From positions 1 through 35,107 of the forward strand of contig JAGTRV010000011.1 in assembly GCA_018262245.1 (NCBI GenBank): a stretch of DNA of 35,107 bases, in the 5' to 3' direction. The stretch comes from Pseudomonadota bacterium (GTDB lineage: Bacteria > Pseudomonadota > Gammaproteobacteria > Burkholderiales > Rhodocyclaceae). Each line of letters starts with the position of its first letter. Position 1 is the stretch's first letter. Below the pieces are notes generated by a model. It did no database searches. It worked only from the letters and a program-made list of their open reading frames with translations, and had not been told where the DNA came from. Below, one piece after another: positions 1-19,863 of the stretch. Both the position numbers and the translations under genes were made by a program.

Positions 1-1
1 T

Positions 2-238
2 GCATGGGGTTGTCTGTTCGGGTTCTCTGCGTGCTCGCGCTTTGCGATCTTTAGCTGGATGTCGAAATTCTTCGAGCGACATACCGTTGTAGTAGATATG
101 CAAGCGAAGTATTACTTCGTGCTACCCGAATACATCTACCAGTTTTCAATTGACTGGCCTTCCATTCGAGGGGAAGGTCAGTTGTCAGTTGGCAAGCAGT
201 ATGTCTTTACAGGACAGGAGCAATGGCGGCCATATTGA
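2..238 (+). CDS. 3' part of an unknown cassette ORF (open at window start), ...FERHTVVVDMQAKYYFVLPEYIYQFSIDWPSIRGEGQLSVGKQYVFTGQEQWRPY*
   Basis: Open frame from position 2 to TGA at 236-238, ending 1 bp before an attC-like R' box (CCCTAAC 240-246). Confidence 0.5.
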   Translation, partial: AWGCLFGFSACSRFAIFSWMSKFFERHTVVVDMQAKYYFVLPEYIYQFSIDWPSIRGEGQLSVGKQYVFTGQEQWRPY

Positions 239-239
239 A

Positions 240-323
240 CCCTAACCCTACGCTCAAGGCGCTTCCTTCGGTCGCCGGGAAACGCTGCAAGCCGCGTGCC
301 CCTTACCTAAAACGTTGGGGCGC
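240..323 (+). other. attC-like recombination site 1
   Basis: R' CCCTAAC (240-246) and R'' GTTGGGG (314-320), about 80 bp apart, complementary with one wobble mismatch. The cassette start TTGGGGCG matches the reverse complement of the next cassette's end CGTCCCAA with one difference. Confidence 0.6.
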
Positions 324-332
324 TTAGCTCGT

Positions 333-770
333 ATGCGCAAACTTGTCCTTGCAGCAATCACCGTATACCAACGCTACGTATCCCCGCACAAGGGTTTCTG
401 CTGCGCGTATCGCGCACACACAGGGCACAAGAGTTGCTCGGTTCTCGGTTTCAGAGCCGTGCGTAGGTACGGCGTTCTCGCTGGCCTCACGGTTCTTAGG
501 CACCGCACCTATTTGTGCGGAGTGGTTCATCGGCGTTACACAAAACCGCGTAACCGCATCCTTCACTCACAGCAAGGATTCTGCGACGTTGGCTGTGATT
601 TCCCCTGTGATGTTCCAAGTATTGATGGGTGCATTTCGCTGGGCGATTTCGCTAGTTGTTGCGATTATGGAAGCTGCGACTGGCCTAGCCGAAATCGGAA
701 GAGTCAAGAGGGAGAGCAATACGTGTACATCCCTCCGAACGTCGAAGGCAAAAAAGAAAACCGTACTTGA
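333..770 (+). CDS. YidD-like (membrane protein insertion efficiency factor) small protein with Cys-rich C-terminal tail, gene cassette
   Basis: MRKLVLAAITVYQRYVSPHKGFCCAYRAHTGHKSCSVLGFRAVRRYGVLAGLTVLRHR resembles the YidD pattern (YQR-ISP...C...SCS..A...G...G). The ORF ends just before attC-like site 2. Confidence 0.6.
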   Translation: MRKLVLAAITVYQRYVSPHKGFCCAYRAHTGHKSCSVLGFRAVRRYGVLAGLTVLRHRTYLCGVVHRRYTKPRNRILHSQQGFCDVGCDFPCDVPSIDGCISLGDFASCCDYGSCDWPSRNRKSQEGEQYVYIPPNVEGKKENRT

Positions 771-780
771 ATCCCCTCCG

Positions 781-850
781 CGTCCCAACCCATCATTCGA
801 GCGAACCTGCGCAAAAAGCCGCGCAGGCCACTCAATTCAAACATTAGCGC
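781..850 (+). other. attC-like recombination site 2
   Basis: R' TCCCAAC (783-789), inner hairpin CTGCGC-aaaaagcc-GCGCAG, R'' ATTAGCGC (843-850). The inner hairpin is shared with the site at 1704-1771. Confidence 0.75.
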
Positions 851-866
851 TTATCAAGGAGTTTTC

Positions 867-959
867 ATGCTTCGCAACGCATTAGTCTTGCTTTTGGCAA
901 CCGCTACATTCCCACTCGTCAAGACATCGCATATGAGCTCATTGTGCAATGAGCGCTAA
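867..959 (+). CDS. 30-aa leader-like micro-ORF in a ~170-bp cassette (MLRNALVLLLATATFPLVKTSHMSSLCNER)
   Basis: AAGGAG-like SD upstream, hydrophobic N-terminus, TAA overlapping the R' box GCGCTAAC (953-960), which is the exact reverse complement of GTTAGCGC. Confidence 0.4.
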   Translation: MLRNALVLLLATATFPLVKTSHMSSLCNER

Positions 960-1020
960 CCACTCATTCCACCCTATCTGTGGGAATACCTCGCTGACTG
1001 GTGAATTCAAACAGTGTGCC
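953..1020 (+). other. attC-like recombination site 3 (degenerate R'')
   Basis: R' GCGCTAAC; inner inverted repeat attccac-cctatct-gtgggaat; 3' end gaattcaaacagtgtgcctt aligns with site 2 caattcaaacattagcgctt. Confidence 0.5.
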
Positions 1021-1052
1021 TTCCGTTCCATTCTCTCAGGAGCTATCGAACA

Positions 1053-1679
1053 ATGACTTGGCGTCTGACGCGCATCCTCATACTCACCTCATTAATAGTT
1101 CTCTGCCATCAGTCCTACGCGGCCGATGCCTATTACGACTACGTAGCAGATTTCTATCTTCACGAAAGTCATCAGGCTCGCAACCCGGACCAGGTAATTC
1201 GATATACCGATGGAGAGAATGGCGCGCTTCTTCAATCAGTCCTTGAGCCGACGCGGGTCAAGGCGGTACTGAACTCCTATTTAGAGTCCATGAAGCGCAG
1301 CGAGAAGATTCCTGAGGTTCCCAAGCTCTTGCAGCCTTTAGCTGCTCGGTATGACGGAGCATTCAAGAAGGAACCACGAGCTTACGAAAAGGAGTTTTTG
1401 GACAGCCTTGAAGCCTCGGTCGAGGTGATCTCTATTGCTTCGGCGATGACTAATGTATCTATGCCGCCTTCCACAACCAACAAAACCTCTGGGGCGGATG
1501 CTGAAAAGCAGAAGGCGCTAACAGATAGTATTCAGTCACTTGCAAAAATGACCCGCGACTTGAGTACTGTTGCCTATAAAGCAATGGCAACGGAAATCCG
1601 CAACAGGGTTGGCAAAGGAATGTTTTCCGAAAGTGGTGCCAAACGCGCCCTGGCAATCGCAGAAAGAATTTCTCCGTAG
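1053..1679 (+). CDS. Exported protein of unknown function, gene cassette
   Basis: ATG with signal peptide MTWRLTRILILTSLIVLCHQSYAADA; ends just upstream of attC-like site 4. Confidence 0.7.
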   Translation: MTWRLTRILILTSLIVLCHQSYAADAYYDYVADFYLHESHQARNPDQVIRYTDGENGALLQSVLEPTRVKAVLNSYLESMKRSEKIPEVPKLLQPLAARYDGAFKKEPRAYEKEFLDSLEASVEVISIASAMTNVSMPPSTTNKTSGADAEKQKALTDSIQSLAKMTRDLSTVAYKAMATEIRNRVGKGMFSESGAKRALAIAERISP

Positions 1680-1703
1680 CTGATATGGGCGCTATCCACG
1701 GTA

Positions 1704-1771
1704 GACCCAACCCGGCGACCAACTGGAGCTGCGCAAAAAGCCGCGCAGGTCAGTTACCTCTACGTTAGAGC
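1704..1771 (+). other. attC-like recombination site 4
   Basis: R' GACCCAAC (1704-1711), inner hairpin CTGCGC-aaaaagcc-GCGCAG, R'' GTTAGAGC (1764-1771). Confidence 0.8.
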
Positions 1772-1773
1772 TC

Positions 1774-2121
1774 ATGAAAACCGTCACTTACCTCGGAGCC
1801 ATTCTCGTCGCATGTCAAGCCACCGCTGGGTCTGCCGCTGATTTGCCCTCCGACCGAGGTCAGTTCCAGGCGCTGGTCGAGCGAGAGATCGTTATAGGTT
1901 CATCTATAGAGTCCGCAAAGGATCGGCTGAAGGCCGTCGGACTCGAGTGCAAGTCGGTCGCCAGGGGATGGACAAACAACGTTCACGACACGACGGAGTT
2001 CATCTTCTGCTCTCGAAACTCTGATGAATGGCCCGTGTTCAGGCGCTGGCAAGTGGCACTGCTACCTCGTGACGGGAAGGTTGCGGAGATACGTTCAAAC
2101 GTCGGTCTCATTGGGCCGTAA
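1774..2121 (+). CDS. Exported protein of unknown function, terminal gene cassette
   Basis: ATG 3 bp after attC R''; signal peptide MKTVTYLGAILVACQATAGSAA; stop TAA overlaps a possible R' box GCCGTAAC. Confidence 0.7.
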   Translation: MKTVTYLGAILVACQATAGSAADLPSDRGQFQALVEREIVIGSSIESAKDRLKAVGLECKSVARGWTNNVHDTTEFIFCSRNSDEWPVFRRWQVALLPRDGKVAEIRSNVGLIGP

Positions 2122-2148
2122 CGTGACCTCTATCGAAAGCAAACAAGA

Positions 2149-2628
2149 TTAGCTTCGCATACATGTAGGAGCAGCCTTTTTCCCCTGACCAATAGTCAGA
2201 TCACAGCCTGCTAGCGGCATCAGCTTACCTGGCGTCCGCAGCAGGTCGGCCAGTGTGTAGCCATCAAGAACGAGGAACATGGCCTTCAAGGCTTCATTGA
2301 GAATCGCAGGCAGGCAGCAGGCGCCCTGAATCCGGCAGGTGCTTTTATCAGCGAAGCATTCGGCCAGCGTGAAATCGCTTTCGGTCTGGCGAATCACCTC
2401 GCCGACGACAATTTCCTGCGGTTCATGCGCCAAGCGCAGGCCGCCGCCCTTGCCACGCACGGTCTCGATATATCCACCTCGCCCGAGCTGATGGGCCACC
2501 TTCATCAGGTGACTCTTTGAAATATCGTGGGCGGCGGCGATTTCGGCGATCGTCGCCAGCCGGTTTGTTTGCGCGCCGAGGTACATCAGAACGCGCAGGC
2601 TGTAGTCGGAAAAGGCACTCAGTCGCAT
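2149..2628 (-). CDS. nsrR: Rrf2-family transcriptional regulator, NsrR-like (NO-sensing)
   Basis: MRLSAFSDYSLRVLMYLGA..., Rrf2 wHTH and Cys cluster CFADKSTCRIQGACC typical of NsrR. Confidence 0.85.
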   Translation of the reverse strand: MRLSAFSDYSLRVLMYLGAQTNRLATIAEIAAAHDISKSHLMKVAHQLGRGGYIETVRGKGGGLRLAHEPQEIVVGEVIRQTESDFTLAECFADKSTCRIQGACCLPAILNEALKAMFLVLDGYTLADLLRTPGKLMPLAGCDLTIGQGKKAAPTCMRS

Positions 2629-2638
2629 GGTCGCTCAA

Positions 2639-2661
2639 AAGATACATTTAAAATATTGCTT
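2639..2661. promoter_or_regulatory. Putative NsrR operator 1
   Basis: AAGATACATTTAAAATATTGCTT resembles the NsrR palindrome AAGATGCATTTNAAATGCATCTT. Confidence 0.55.
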
Positions 2662-2685
2662 ATAGCGATCTTGGTTGATAGCATC

Positions 2686-2708
2686 AAGATTCATTTTATT
2701 TATATCTT
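2686..2708. promoter_or_regulatory. Putative NsrR operator 2
   Basis: AAGATTCATTTTATTTATATCTT, an imperfect palindrome of the same type. Confidence 0.5.
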
Positions 2709-2757
2709 ATGCCAGCCTGTGGCGCAATTCGCCCGGCTGGTCATCGCCGGAATAGTC

Positions 2758-4161
2758 ATGGCCAAGCAGCCCGCAAAAAAGATCTTTGAAATCAAGCAGG
2801 TCGTCGATCCGGATGCCAAGGTCTATCCGCGTTCGATCAGCGGACCTTACACCCGCTGGCGCTGGGTCTTTGTCTGGCTGACCCAGATCGTTTTCTATGG
2901 CCTGTGCTGGCTACCCTGGCATGGTCGTCAGGCCATCCTGTTCGACATCGACACCCGCAAGTTCTATTTCTTCGACCTGGTACTCTGGCCGCAGGACACG
3001 ATCTATCTCGTGCTGCTGATGATTCTCGGGGCCTTCACCCTCTTCCTGTTTACCGCCGTGGCGGGACGATTGTGGTGCGGCTATACCTGCCCGCAAACCG
3101 TTTATACGGAAATCTTCCTGTGGTTTGAAAAGGTCATCGAAGGCGAACGGCCGCAGCGCATCAAGCTTGATGCCGCCCCGTGGTCGCCGCGCAAACTGGC
3201 GATCAAGAGCGCCAAGCACGCGACGTGGATCCTCTTCTCGCTGTGGACCGGGATCACCTTTGTCGGTTATTTCATGCCGATCCACGATCTGGTCAATGAT
3301 CTGATTACCCTGTCGCCCGGTGCCTGGTCGTCCTTCTGGGTGGTCTTTTATGCCTTCGCCACCTATGGCAACGCCGGCTTCCTGCGCGACCAGATGTGCC
3401 GCCAGATCTGCCCCTACGCCCGCTTCCAGTTCGTGATGTTCGACCCCGACACGCTGATCATCGCCTACGACACGGCGCGTGGCGATGCCCGCGGCCCGCG
3501 CGCCAAGGGGGCCGACCCCAAGGCCCTGGGCCTGGGTGATTGCGTCGATTGCGGCATCTGCGTTCAGGTCTGCCCGACCGGCATCGACATTCGTAACGGC
3601 TTGCAGAACGAGTGTATTGGCTGCGCCGCATGCATTGACGCCTGCGATCAGGTCATGGACAAGATGGATTACCCGCGCGGCCTGATCCGCTATTCGACTG
3701 AAAACGCTGTTTCAATGCGCTTTACGACGCTGGAAATCATCAAACGTGCAGCCCGGCCGCGGGTCATCATCTACACGGCGATCCTGCTGGCCCTGACGGG
3801 CGCCATCGCCTGGTCGCTGGCCACCCGCGTGCCGCTGAAGGTCAATGTCCTGAAGGATCGCAACGTGCTGTCCCGGGAAGCGGACGATGGCTCGATCGAG
3901 AATACCTATCGCCTGCAGATCATGAATACCGGCGACCAGACGCGGAAGTTCCGGATCAGCATTGGCGGTGTCGAAGGCGCCCGCCTGAAGGGTGACAGCG
4001 AAATTACCGTACCCGGCGGTGAGATTGGCAGTCAGAGCGCCATTGTCAGCGCTGAACCGGGGGCCACCCGATCCGGTGCAACGCCGATCACTTTCAGCGT
4101 GACCGACGTGGCCGACGAAAAAGTCTCGGTCACCGAAAGCTCGAAGTTCTGGATGCCCTGA
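2758..4161 (+). CDS. ccoG: Cytochrome c oxidase accessory protein CcoG (FixG/RdxA family, 4Fe-4S)
   Basis: MAKQPAKKIFEIKQVVDPDAKVYPRSISGPYTRWRW; CGYTCPQTVYTEIF; CVDCGICVQVCPTGIDIRNGLQNECIGCAACIDACD. Confidence 0.92.
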   Translation: MAKQPAKKIFEIKQVVDPDAKVYPRSISGPYTRWRWVFVWLTQIVFYGLCWLPWHGRQAILFDIDTRKFYFFDLVLWPQDTIYLVLLMILGAFTLFLFTAVAGRLWCGYTCPQTVYTEIFLWFEKVIEGERPQRIKLDAAPWSPRKLAIKSAKHATWILFSLWTGITFVGYFMPIHDLVNDLITLSPGAWSSFWVVFYAFATYGNAGFLRDQMCRQICPYARFQFVMFDPDTLIIAYDTARGDARGPRAKGADPKALGLGDCVDCGICVQVCPTGIDIRNGLQNECIGCAACIDACDQVMDKMDYPRGLIRYSTENAVSMRFTTLEIIKRAARPRVIIYTAILLALTGAIAWSLATRVPLKVNVLKDRNVLSREADDGSIENTYRLQIMNTGDQTRKFRISIGGVEGARLKGDSEITVPGGEIGSQSAIVSAEPGATRSGATPITFSVTDVADEKVSVTESSKFWMP

Positions 4162-4394: not shown

Positions 4395-7300
4395 ATGGCC
4401 AGCCTCACCCCTCAAGACAGCCCCCGGCCACGCCGCTGGAAGCTTTACCTCACCCTTGGCATCCTCGTATTGGGTACCGCCGTTGCCACCGCCGGCTGGA
4501 TCGAACTGCAGGAATCCAGTTTCCAGGCCCGCTATTTCACCGAACAGGCGAAAACCTCCACTTGGACCATGGAATCCGGCGCTGACAAGGACATCTGGTT
4601 TCCAGCCACCGGCCCGTACGAGCAACGCCTGGGCTACGCACAGCTAAGCAATTTCCTGCCGCGCCTGGCCAGTTCGGGGTTCATCATCGACACCCAGGCC
4701 CGGCAATCCGCTGGTTTCCGCCACATTGTTGGTCTTGGCCATTTCCCCATTTACCGTGAAAAATCCCGGGCGGGCTTGAGCATTCTCGATCGTCACGATC
4801 AACCGCTCTATGACAGCCAGTATCCGCGTGTCCAGTACGCTGACTTCGAAGCTATTCCACCGGTCCTGGTCGAAGCGCTGCTGTTCATCGAAAACCGCGA
4901 CCTGCTTGACACCACTTACCCGAAGCGCAATCCGGCCGTCGATTGGGGCCGGTTGGCCCGGGTCGCGGCAGGTCAGGCACTGCGCCACGTCAATATGGGT
5001 GGCGGCCGTGCCGGCGGCAGCACGCTGGCGACGCAGATCGAGAAATTCCGCCACTCCCCCGGTGGGCGCACGCGCGATACCGACGACAAATATCACCAGA
5101 TGATGTCGGCTGCCCTGCGCGCCTATCAGGATGGCGAGGAAAACCTGCCGGCCCGCCGCCGCATCGTTCTCGATTTCATCAATTCCGTACCGCTCGGCGG
5201 CATTCCGGGCTACGGCGAGGTCAATGGGCTGGGCGATGGCCTGTGGGCCTGGTACGGGCAGGAATTCGCCCGCACCAATCAACTGCTGGCCGACCCCAAG
5301 GCCGCCCTCACCGAGCGGGCCAAAGCCTTCAAGCAGGCACTCTCCCTGTTCGTTGCCCAGCGCCGGCCATCGGGCCTGCTCGGCGACACGACGGGGCGCC
5401 TCAATGCGCTGACCGACAGCTATATCCGCCTGCTGGCTGAAGACCAGCTGATCCCCGCCGACCTGCGCGAAGCCGCCCTCCAGGTACAGATCAACCCGGC
5501 ACGTCAGGCCCGCCCCGGCGAAGAAGTCTCTTTCGTCGAACGCAAGGCGGTCAACGAAATCCGCGGCACGCTGGGCGACCTCCTCAACATCGAGAATCTC
5601 TATTCCCTCGACCGCTACGACCTGACCGTCCATAGCACCCTCGATGGTCCCAGCCAGCAGGCAGTGACGCGTATCCTGAACCGTCTCGCCGACCCGGCTT
5701 TCCTGGCCTGCGCAGGTCTCAAGGAAGGCCGGTTGCTGGACAGAGGTGACCCGAAACAGGTCAACTACAGCCTGACCCTGTACGAGCGCACACCGACCGC
5801 CAACGTGCTGCGCATCCAGGCCGACAATCTCGATCAGCCGCTGGACATCAACGCCGGCACCAAGCTTGATCTCGGCTCCAGCGCCAAGTTCCGGACCCTG
5901 GTTTCCTACCTGCTGGTCGTCACCGACCTGCACCAGCGCTACAGCCAGATGCCCCCGGCAGAACTGGCCAAGCTGCCCCGCCACCCGGCCGACCGTCTGA
6001 GCAACTGGGCGATAGATAGCTTGCGCGCCAAGCCGGAGATGACGCTGGAGGCTTTGCTCGAAGCTGCCATGGAGCGCCGCTATTCGGCCAGCCCCGGTGA
6101 AACCTTCTTCACCGGCGGCGGCATTCACCACTTCAACAATTTCAAGCACGAAGACGATGGCAAGGTACCGAGCGTCGCCGAAGCGCTGGAACAGTCGGTC
6201 AATCTCGTTTTCGTCCGGATCATGCACGATGTCGTGCACTACCACGCCTACGAGGCGGTCGACGCGCCGGCCCGCGGCCTGCGTGATAAGGACGACGAGG
6301 AGACCCGGCAGGCCTTCCTCAACCGCTTTGCCGAACGGGAAGGTCTCGGCTTCCTGCGTACTTACTGGCACAAGTACCGTGACGTGGCACCGGAAGACCG
6401 GCTTGAAGTCCTCAGCGACTCGGTTCCCGCCCGGCCCGTGCCGCAGGCTGCCGCCTACCTGAGCGTCCTGCCGAAGAGCGATTTCGCCAGCTTCCTCGCC
6501 TTCATGCGCAAGCAACTCGGGGAAAAGGCCGGCACTGACGCCGGCCTGCGCCGCCTGTTCGACACCCACGCCACGCGCCAGTACAACCTGGCCGACCAGG
6601 GCTACCTGGCCCGGGTGCATCCGCTCGAACTGTGGCTGGTCCGCCATCTGCAGGACCAACCGAAAGCCACGCTCAAGGACATCGTGCCGGCCAGCGTCGA
6701 GGCTCGCCGCGATGCGTCGAAGTGGCTGTTCTCGACGCGATTCAAGCATGCCCAGCAGGTCCGTATCGACATCGTTGTCGAAGTCGCTGCCTTCGAGCGC
6801 ATCGCCGACGAGTGGCGGCGCCTGGGCTACCCCTTCGAACATCTGGTGCCCTCGCTGGCCACCTCGATCGGCAGCTCCGCCGACCGGCCAGCGGCCCTCG
6901 CAGAATTGATGGGCATCGTGGTCAATGACGGTATCCGGCGCCCGACGGTGCGCATCGACGAATTGCTGTTTGCGGCCAACACCCCGTTCGAAACGCGCCT
7001 CAAGCGCCAGCCCGAAGCCGGCGAACGGGTCATGCCGGTCGAAGTCGCCCAGGTTACCCGGCGCGCCTTGCTCCGCGTCGTCAATAGCGGCACTGCCCGA
7101 CGTATAAAGGACGCCTACCGCGACAACGAGGAAAAACCGTTGCTGGTCGGTGGCAAGACCGGCACCGGCGACCACCGCTCCAAGGTCATTGGCGCAGATG
7201 GTGGCGTGCGTAGCGCCAAGGTCATGAATCGTGCCGCGACCTTTGCCTTCTACATCGGTGACCGCTTCTACGGTGTCGTGACCGCCTTCGTGCCCGGCTC

Positions 7301-7421
7301 CAAAGCGGCCGCCTACGACTTCACCTCGGCGCTACCGGTCCAGATTCTCAAGGAAATGGAACCGGTCTTGCGACCGCTGGTTGCCGATCGCCCCGCGGCG
7401 GAAGGCAAGTGCAAAGGCTAA
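4395..7421 (+). CDS. Class-A penicillin-binding protein-like bifunctional transglycosylase/transpeptidase (1008 aa)
   Basis: N-terminal TM; GT51-like ALLFIENRDL...GGSTLATQIEKF; transpeptidase motifs SSAK (SxxK), SVN (SxN) and KTGTG. Confidence 0.8.
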   Translation: MASLTPQDSPRPRRWKLYLTLGILVLGTAVATAGWIELQESSFQARYFTEQAKTSTWTMESGADKDIWFPATGPYEQRLGYAQLSNFLPRLASSGFIIDTQARQSAGFRHIVGLGHFPIYREKSRAGLSILDRHDQPLYDSQYPRVQYADFEAIPPVLVEALLFIENRDLLDTTYPKRNPAVDWGRLARVAAGQALRHVNMGGGRAGGSTLATQIEKFRHSPGGRTRDTDDKYHQMMSAALRAYQDGEENLPARRRIVLDFINSVPLGGIPGYGEVNGLGDGLWAWYGQEFARTNQLLADPKAALTERAKAFKQALSLFVAQRRPSGLLGDTTGRLNALTDSYIRLLAEDQLIPADLREAALQVQINPARQARPGEEVSFVERKAVNEIRGTLGDLLNIENLYSLDRYDLTVHSTLDGPSQQAVTRILNRLADPAFLACAGLKEGRLLDRGDPKQVNYSLTLYERTPTANVLRIQADNLDQPLDINAGTKLDLGSSAKFRTLVSYLLVVTDLHQRYSQMPPAELAKLPRHPADRLSNWAIDSLRAKPEMTLEALLEAAMERRYSASPGETFFTGGGIHHFNNFKHEDDGKVPSVAEALEQSVNLVFVRIMHDVVHYHAYEAVDAPARGLRDKDDEETRQAFLNRFAEREGLGFLRTYWHKYRDVAPEDRLEVLSDSVPARPVPQAAAYLSVLPKSDFASFLAFMRKQLGEKAGTDAGLRRLFDTHATRQYNLADQGYLARVHPLELWLVRHLQDQPKATLKDIVPASVEARRDASKWLFSTRFKHAQQVRIDIVVEVAAFERIADEWRRLGYPFEHLVPSLATSIGSSADRPAALAELMGIVVNDGIRRPTVRIDELLFAANTPFETRLKRQPEAGERVMPVEVAQVTRRALLRVVNSGTARRIKDAYRDNEEKPLLVGGKTGTGDHRSKVIGADGGVRSAKVMNRAATFAFYIGDRFYGVVTAFVPGSKAAAYDFTSALPVQILKEMEPVLRPLVADRPAAEGKCKG

Positions 7422-18126: not shown

Positions 18127-19863
18127 ATGCAAAACGAACACTTCATTCCGGGCAAGGACGCCTCGCTCGAACACTCCATCGCCTCCATGCAGGCCAAGCT
18201 GACTGCCCTCGGTTTCGATATCGAGGAATGCTCCTGGCTCAATCCGGTTGATAACGTCTGGTCGGTGCACGTGCGCAATCGCGCCTGCCACCTGATGTTT
18301 ACCAACGGCAAGGGCGCCACCAAGCTGGCCGCCCAGGCCAGCGCGCTGGGCGAATATTTCGAGCGCCTGTCGTGCAACTACTTCTGGAATCATTATTACC
18401 TCGGCGACGCCGTGGCCAACGGCGAATTCGCCCATTACCCGCGCGAACGCTGGTTCCCGGTCACCGGCTCCGACTGGCCGAGCGAACTGCTGACGCCGGA
18501 ACTGCAGGCCTTCTACAACCCGGAAGGCAGCATCCCGGCCGAAGCGCTGATCGACATGAACACCGGCCACTACGAGCGCGGCATCTGCGCCATTCCCTAC
18601 GTGCGCCAGCGTGACGGCGCCGAGGTCTACGTGCCGGTCAACATCATCAGCAACCTTTACGTCAGCAACGGCATGTCGGCCGGTAACACGCCGGCCGAGG
18701 CGCGCGCCCAGGCGCTGTCGGAAATCATCGAACGCCACGTCAAGTTCAAGGTTATTGCTGAAGGCCTGTGCCTGCCCGATGTGCCAGAAGAAGTCATCGC
18801 CCGCTACCCGACCATCGCCGCCGGCATCCAGGGGCTGCGCGATGCCGGCTTCGGCATTCTGGTCAAGGACGCCTCGCTCGGCGGCAACTACCCGGTGCTC
18901 TGCGTGACCATGCTCAACCCGCGCGACCAGGGCATTTTCGCCAGCTTCGGGGCGCATCCGCGTTTCGAGATCGCCCTTGAACGGGCCCTGACCGAACTGC
19001 TGCAGGGCCGCGCCCTGGAAGCGCTGGACGGCTTCCCGCCCCCCGGCTTCGACCTCGATGAAGTGGCCAGCGCGCCGAACATCGAGATCCACTTCGTCGA
19101 TTCGAGCGGCATCGTGCATTGGGAATTCTTCGGCGACACGCCCGATTTCGAATTCGCGGACTGGAATTTCAACGATCTCGAAAACGGCAAAACCACCGAC
19201 GACTACGCCTGGCTGGCCGAACGCATCCACGCCGACGGCCACGACATCTACGTCGCCGACTTCGACCACCTCGGCGTCTATGCTTGCCGCATCCTGGTTC
19301 CCGGCATGTCGGAAATCTATCCGATCGACGATCTGGAATGGGAAAACAACAGCAACGGCGCCGCCGTCCGCCCGGCCATCCTGAATCTGGCCGAACTCGA
19401 CGACGACCAGTGCGGGCAGTTGCTCGACCTGCTGAACGAACTGAACATCGCCGACGAACGCCCGGTTGCCGCGTTGATCGGCCTTGCTCCGGATGCCGGT
19501 TCGCTATGGGCCGATCTGCGCATCGGCGAACTGAAGACCATGCTGGCGCTGGCCGTCGGCGATACCGATGCAACGCTCGAAGGTTGCGAATGGGTGCGCC
19601 AGTTCGAACAACTCGATGCCGGACGCCGCCGTGTTTATCAGTGCATCGCGACACTGCTCGAAATGGAAGACCCGAACATCTTCGAGGACGCGCTGGTCAG
19701 CCTCTACGGTGAGGACACACTGGACATGGCGACCGACCTGATCGATGGCGAAATCCGTTTCTTCGGGCTAGTTTCACCGGGACTCGAGCTGACCGGTTGT
19801 GAATTACACCAGCGGCTGCTGGCTGAATACGCCAAAGCCCACCCAACTAAGGTGCACGGCTGA
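18127..19863 (+). CDS. ycaO: YcaO-type protein (E. coli YcaO-like, 578 aa)
   Basis: YcaO-domain sequence GKGATKLAAQASALGEYFERLSCNYF...ARAQALSEIIERHVKFKVI...RFEIALERALTELLQG; length and C-terminal extension like E. coli YcaO. Confidence 0.85.
   Translation: MQNEHFIPGKDASLEHSIASMQAKLTALGFDIEECSWLNPVDNVWSVHVRNRACHLMFTNGKGATKLAAQASALGEYFERLSCNYFWNHYYLGDAVANGEFAHYPRERWFPVTGSDWPSELLTPELQAFYNPEGSIPAEALIDMNTGHYERGICAIPYVRQRDGAEVYVPVNIISNLYVSNGMSAGNTPAEARAQALSEIIERHVKFKVIAEGLCLPDVPEEVIARYPTIAAGIQGLRDAGFGILVKDASLGGNYPVLCVTMLNPRDQGIFASFGAHPRFEIALERALTELLQGRALEALDGFPPPGFDLDEVASAPNIEIHFVDSSGIVHWEFFGDTPDFEFADWNFNDLENGKTTDDYAWLAERIHADGHDIYVADFDHLGVYACRILVPGMSEIYPIDDLEWENNSNGAAVRPAILNLAELDDDQCGQLLDLLNELNIADERPVAALIGLAPDAGSLWADLRIGELKTMLALAVGDTDATLEGCEWVRQFEQLDAGRRRVYQCIATLLEMEDPNIFEDALVSLYGEDTLDMATDLIDGEIRFFGLVSPGLELTGCELHQRLLAEYAKAHPTKVHG

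Follow-up and report, generated by a model that had tools for sequence, protein, structure and literature searches.

Results

A row of small cassettes with attC-like sites occupies the first 2.1 kb of the window and runs up to an nsrR-like gene, with no integrase in view. The question is where this array came from, and what became of its integrase. The window is one whole contig (C20, base 1 to 35107; 35,107 nucleotides) of a draft genome in 379 contigs, 84% complete, from a Dechloromonas-like betaproteobacterium. Because the window spans the entire contig, the array stops on its left where the assembly breaks off, and in a draft of this kind the missing integrase is therefore uninformative when the window is taken alone. 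An Rfam scan of the window gave zero matches.

attC sites and their independent scoring

To score the sites we used an attC covariance model, R1, trained on 19 sites from contigs C210, C171 and C202 of the same genome and from the relatives G005 and G043, with the window sites excluded; the stems of this training set are backed by covariation. A scan by folding and motif alone was discarded as an attC finder, since it was noisy and gave many false matches. The unfiltered R1 scan of window positions 1-4000 recovered attC 1 (238-321, forward strand; 47.8 bits, E=4e-12), the best preserved, attC 2 (781-850, forward; 21.4 bits, E=1.3e-4) and attC 4 (1703-1771, forward; 20.6 bits, E=2e-4), all E-values being those of the 4-kb scan. 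Three of the four window sites thus show the R''-L''-L'-R' fold and GTTRRRY core by an independent model. The remaining one, attC 3 (952-1017, forward; 9.5 bits, E=0.31 in the same scan), keeps its 5' half intact and has lost its 3' core, carrying AAACAGTGTGCC where GTTRRRY is expected, and is degraded and probably dead.

At genome scale the E-values of 781-850 and 1703-1771 are 0.12 and 0.20, marginal alone; we regard both sites as secure because of their spacing, their orientation and the matching cassette ends. By direct reading, TTGGGGCG near 316 pairs with CGTCCCAA at 781 with one difference, and TTAGCGC near 844 pairs exactly with GCGCTAA at 953. Across the genome, R1 matches fell on C171, C202, C20 and C210, plus one marginal match on C163, and in 97 kb of the host genome nothing exceeded 10.4 bits beyond the ends of the array contigs.

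The first-pass annotation had proposed integron-type, co-oriented cassettes with their distal end abutting nsrR, and the R1 scan and blastn bear this out. Of its four attC-like sites, three hold firmly and the fourth survives as a degraded remnant, and its cassette box pairs read as it described. It had named failure of covariance models to score any site as counting against an array; three scored clearly and 952-1017 weakly. Its observation that two sites have a common inner hairpin is correct, CTGCGCAAAAAGCCGCGCAG occurring in exactly two copies genome-wide, both within the window, but the lineage-specific attC family drawn from it is weak, as the inner parts differ in other attC sites of the genome and its relatives.

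Cassette content and the right junction

The window opens with the 3' part of a cassette ORF truncated by the contig end (2-238, forward, at least 78 aa, no Pfam match). Cassette 1 (ORF 333-770, forward) encodes a YidD-like protein (PF01809, 29.4 bits against a cut-off of 27). Its homologues, at 52-70%, lie in scattered genomes of the family and none has an R1-type attC within 1.5 kb, so YidD is not shown to be a travelling cassette gene; a literature search found no report of YidD in integron cassettes among the papers it covered. Cassette 2 is a mini-cassette read directly from the sequence, with a 30-aa hydrophobic ORF (867-959, forward) whose stop lies inside the next attC.

Cassette 3 (ORF 1053-1679, forward) encodes a putative exported protein of unassigned function. 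A homologue at 72%, present in one of 150 other family genomes, lies in G109, a member of another genus, with its own attC directly after it. We therefore take cassette 3 to be a real mobile cassette, and its homologue documents cassette mobility between genomes. Cassette 4 (ORF 1774-2121, forward, 115 aa) encodes a further putative exported protein, has no attC after it and found no relatives among the genome contigs or plasmids searched. By eye, cassettes 3 and 4 have signal-peptide-like N-termini. The right junction of the insertion falls at 2122-2150 by blastn against G005 and G048, homology to relatives starting at 2151, and the chromosomal flank begins with the nsrR-like Rrf2-family regulator (2149-2628, reverse; PF02082, 120.9 bits).

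Three side observations concern other sequences. A 578-aa ORF at window 18127-19863 resembles YcaO-type proteins by eye. In G003 an attC array near a contig end (L087 14438-16845) lies about 3 kb past a homologue of the window's 1008-aa ORF (4395-7421). In G043 (L091 4500-7430) a short cassette, with an AAGGCT start followed by TTTATGCTTCTTCGC-like sequence, is present in about five near-identical copies in one array.

Synteny places the array between cysH and nsrR

In the relative G005, cysH and this same nsrR-like gene are adjacent, with 218 bp between them. By blastn, G005:C88 aligns with C171 as far as 23267 on one side of this gap and with C20 from 2151 onward on the other. C171 carries cysH near its end, followed by a 5' fossil of intI, an attI site (attI'), a cassette, and then an attC (E=4e-20) whose orientation agrees with that of the window sites. 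The synteny therefore places the array as an insertion between cysH and nsrR, with the window as its distal end. On this comparison C171 and C20 would join, the middle of the cassette array between them being absent from the assembly. The two contigs also flank the same locus in G048, with about 16 kb of other DNA between them (blastn).

A second locus is defined by C210 and C202: by blastn, they align on either side of the hrpA-intI array in G005:C13. Taken with the synteny of C171 and C20, this means that the host genome carries two arrays, each at its own locus, and contig ends fall within both.

Beside nsrR, no attC was present in the stretches read from G048, G005, G043, G002, G035, G020 and G041. 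The cysH side likewise had none in 28 further genomes of the genus, where the single weak match lay inside cysH itself. The array is thus not conserved in relatives, the opposite of the fixed gene order that the first-pass annotation had named as counting against it. As an aside, the G048 segment at the cysH-nsrR junction (L082 2562-18354) is unrelated DNA, and the junction may be an insertion hot spot.

A fossil integrase and an intact one

The sole full-length intI in the assembly (494.8 bits, no stops) lies on C210, a 3465-bp contig, beside hrpA and followed by attI, a cassette and an attC. A complete integron, hrpA-intI-attI-cassettes, is therefore present on C210/C202, elsewhere in the genome.

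On C171, the 330 bp just before attI', downstream of cysH, hold an intI 5' end in reverse orientation. Its translation reads AKHYSMQAEMQYSLWVF*IFVFHGN against LKHYSIRTETQYVQWIRRFILFHDK in the intact intI. For most references, this region shows little ungapped identity (z 0.8-4.3) to the sequence upstream of the intact attI, an effect that indels probably explain, and a gapped profile took the place of this comparison. The protein profile gave 11.0 bits against a maximum of 6.8 in 1000 shuffles; the DNA profile, from which the 12 nt adjoining attI' were omitted, gave 35.4 bits over 195 bp against a maximum of 6.6 in 3000 block shuffles. In addition, the ATGCTGTAATGCTTG stretch lies about 143 bp from attI' and at nearly equal distance from attI on C210. 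This fossil is short, spanning a few tens of codons that include a stop. Where a complete integron would have an intact intI adjoining attI, C171 has a decayed intI 5' end.

A separate case appears in G047, a one-contig genome, where an intI 5' stub (E=1.8e-9) stands with an attI of the C210 type and four attC sites (L107 9248-12160). A complete intI, with an attI of a different type, lies about 25 kb away from this stub array.

An identical docking site heads the array

The attI' (C171 23618-23661) heads the array and is identical to the attI of C210 over 46 nt, from CCCCTGCAG to CGTTAG, the last four nucleotides lying in the first cassette. The two contigs diverge at once on both sides of this identity. 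The attI of G005, next to an intI region sharing 92% identity with the C210 one, already differs at 4 of the 46 positions. The identity of attI' stands beside an intI' that has decayed to the edge of recognition. Such identity might reflect selection on attI' through its use by IntI in trans, or recombination that made the copies alike. We hold only tentatively, and consider rather unlikely, that attI' is a living second docking site for the intact IntI in trans, with the attI copies homogenised by mutual recombination. Among 81 genomes, six hold seven copies of the C210-type attI, five adjoining a full intI and two adjoining a stub; G028:C190, of the same genus as the window, has the same attI.

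In attI sites whose integrases share at least about 75% identity with the C210 IntI, two 11-bp arms separated by a 4-nt spacer form an inverted repeat that stops 4 nt short of the GTT core. It is found on C210 (L004, 2543-2587), in attI' on C171, and at L054, L055, L056, L061, L063, L067, L107, L150, L159, L160 and L161. With the arm located from its right half alone, 8 or more of the 11 positions pair in every one of the 17 such loci that carry the right-arm motif; the attI sites of more distant integrases mostly have fewer. In 15 distinct sites, both-side changes occur in 7 of 11 pairs and the covariation score is 0.484 against 0.188 in shuffles; these sites were selected for pairing, which biases the percentage paired and affects the covariation less. 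This covariation would be expected both of a protein-bound DNA dyad and of a hairpin. We found no description of the repeat in the literature, our coverage of which is thin for subscription journals.

Discussion

The window's attC sites, an insertion point fixed by synteny, a fossil intI' next to an identical attI', an intact integron at another locus, and a cassette 3 homologue that carries its attC in another genus together lead us to conclude, with considerable confidence, that a second chromosomal integron was inserted between cysH and nsrR and has since lost its integrase, and that the first 2.1 kb of the window are its distal end.

Three other explanations were weighed against this one. 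The window could belong at the far end of the hrpA-linked integron, which is intact, with intI missing through the contig break only; the genome does hold one complete integron, and contigs do break inside arrays. However, the distal flank of the hrpA-intI array in G005 matches C202, not C20, and the partner of nsrR is cysH on C171, so that synteny contradicts this explanation, which we hold very improbable. We give marginally less credit still to the idea that an outside IntI put the cassettes into a secondary site of the chromosome (attG), at a locus that was never an integron. Insertion off target has been proposed as one way in which CALINs arise (PMC8618304), and an intact IntI exists in the same genome, but the first cassette would then adjoin ordinary chromosomal DNA, whereas here attI' and the intI' fossil head the array in correct orientation and spacing. 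That the sites are chance hairpins between small ORFs, with no integron at all, we regard as close to negligible: structure alone is noisy, as the folding scan demonstrated, yet the E-values of the independent model, the lack of comparable matches elsewhere in the 97 kb and the attC that follows the cassette 3 homologue in another genus all contradict it.

A lost second integron would have the layout cysH, terminator, intI' fossil (reverse), attI', cassette, attC, unassembled cassettes, the four cassettes of the window, and nsrR. Cassettes would have been loaded singly at attI', IntI recombining attI' with a folded single-strand attC. Newer cassettes would have entered on the cysH side, making those of the window the oldest, which would account for the dead attC 3 and the absent terminal attC. 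The intact IntI of C210 may still be able to act in trans on the surviving sites.

Today the array is a CALIN, reached by decay of a second integron, because the intI' on C171 is merely a decayed 5' fragment; at least two attC sites stand here without a neighbouring intI in an array whose middle is unassembled, and a further intI could lie there or in the 16% of the genome that the draft lacks. Both options of the first-pass annotation, the distal part of a longer integron or a CALIN, hold in a sense, with the proximal part on C171 and its intI' decayed. The array resembles CALINs in having at least two attC sites, co-oriented cassettes, no intI nearby and a complete integron at another place in the genome. 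Such arrays have been proposed to arise, among other ways, by loss of intI (PMC8618304), and they occur away from the integron locus in about half of Xanthomonas genomes (PMC12444791). The present array differs in that its attI, which matches the resident one exactly, is retained beside a recognisable intI 5' fossil, and its origin is therefore readable.

Pseudogenes make up about a third of the intI genes surveyed, and Dechloromonas aromatica is a documented integron carrier (PMC2426708); frequent intI pseudogenes are a trait of this class of elements (PMC2426708, PMC12444791). The Xanthomonas chromosomal integron with an intI pseudogene likewise combines a decayed intI with retained cassettes, but here a second integron exists beside an intact copy, and its intI' is down to a few tens of codons. 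The C210/C202 integron has the same attI over 46 nt and the same kind of attC, and differs in its full-length intI and its place beside hrpA. The window array is thus essentially an ordinary integron with a lost integrase, by a route already proposed (PMC8618304) and in a host group known for integrons; the readable path and the surviving docking site are less usual.

CALINs are frequent, and how they arose can usually not be read. In the present case the steps are legible in one genome and its relatives: insertion between two named genes, loading of cassettes, loss of the integrase and survival of the docking site. If attI' is indeed still used in trans, one integrase would serve two arrays at separate loci.
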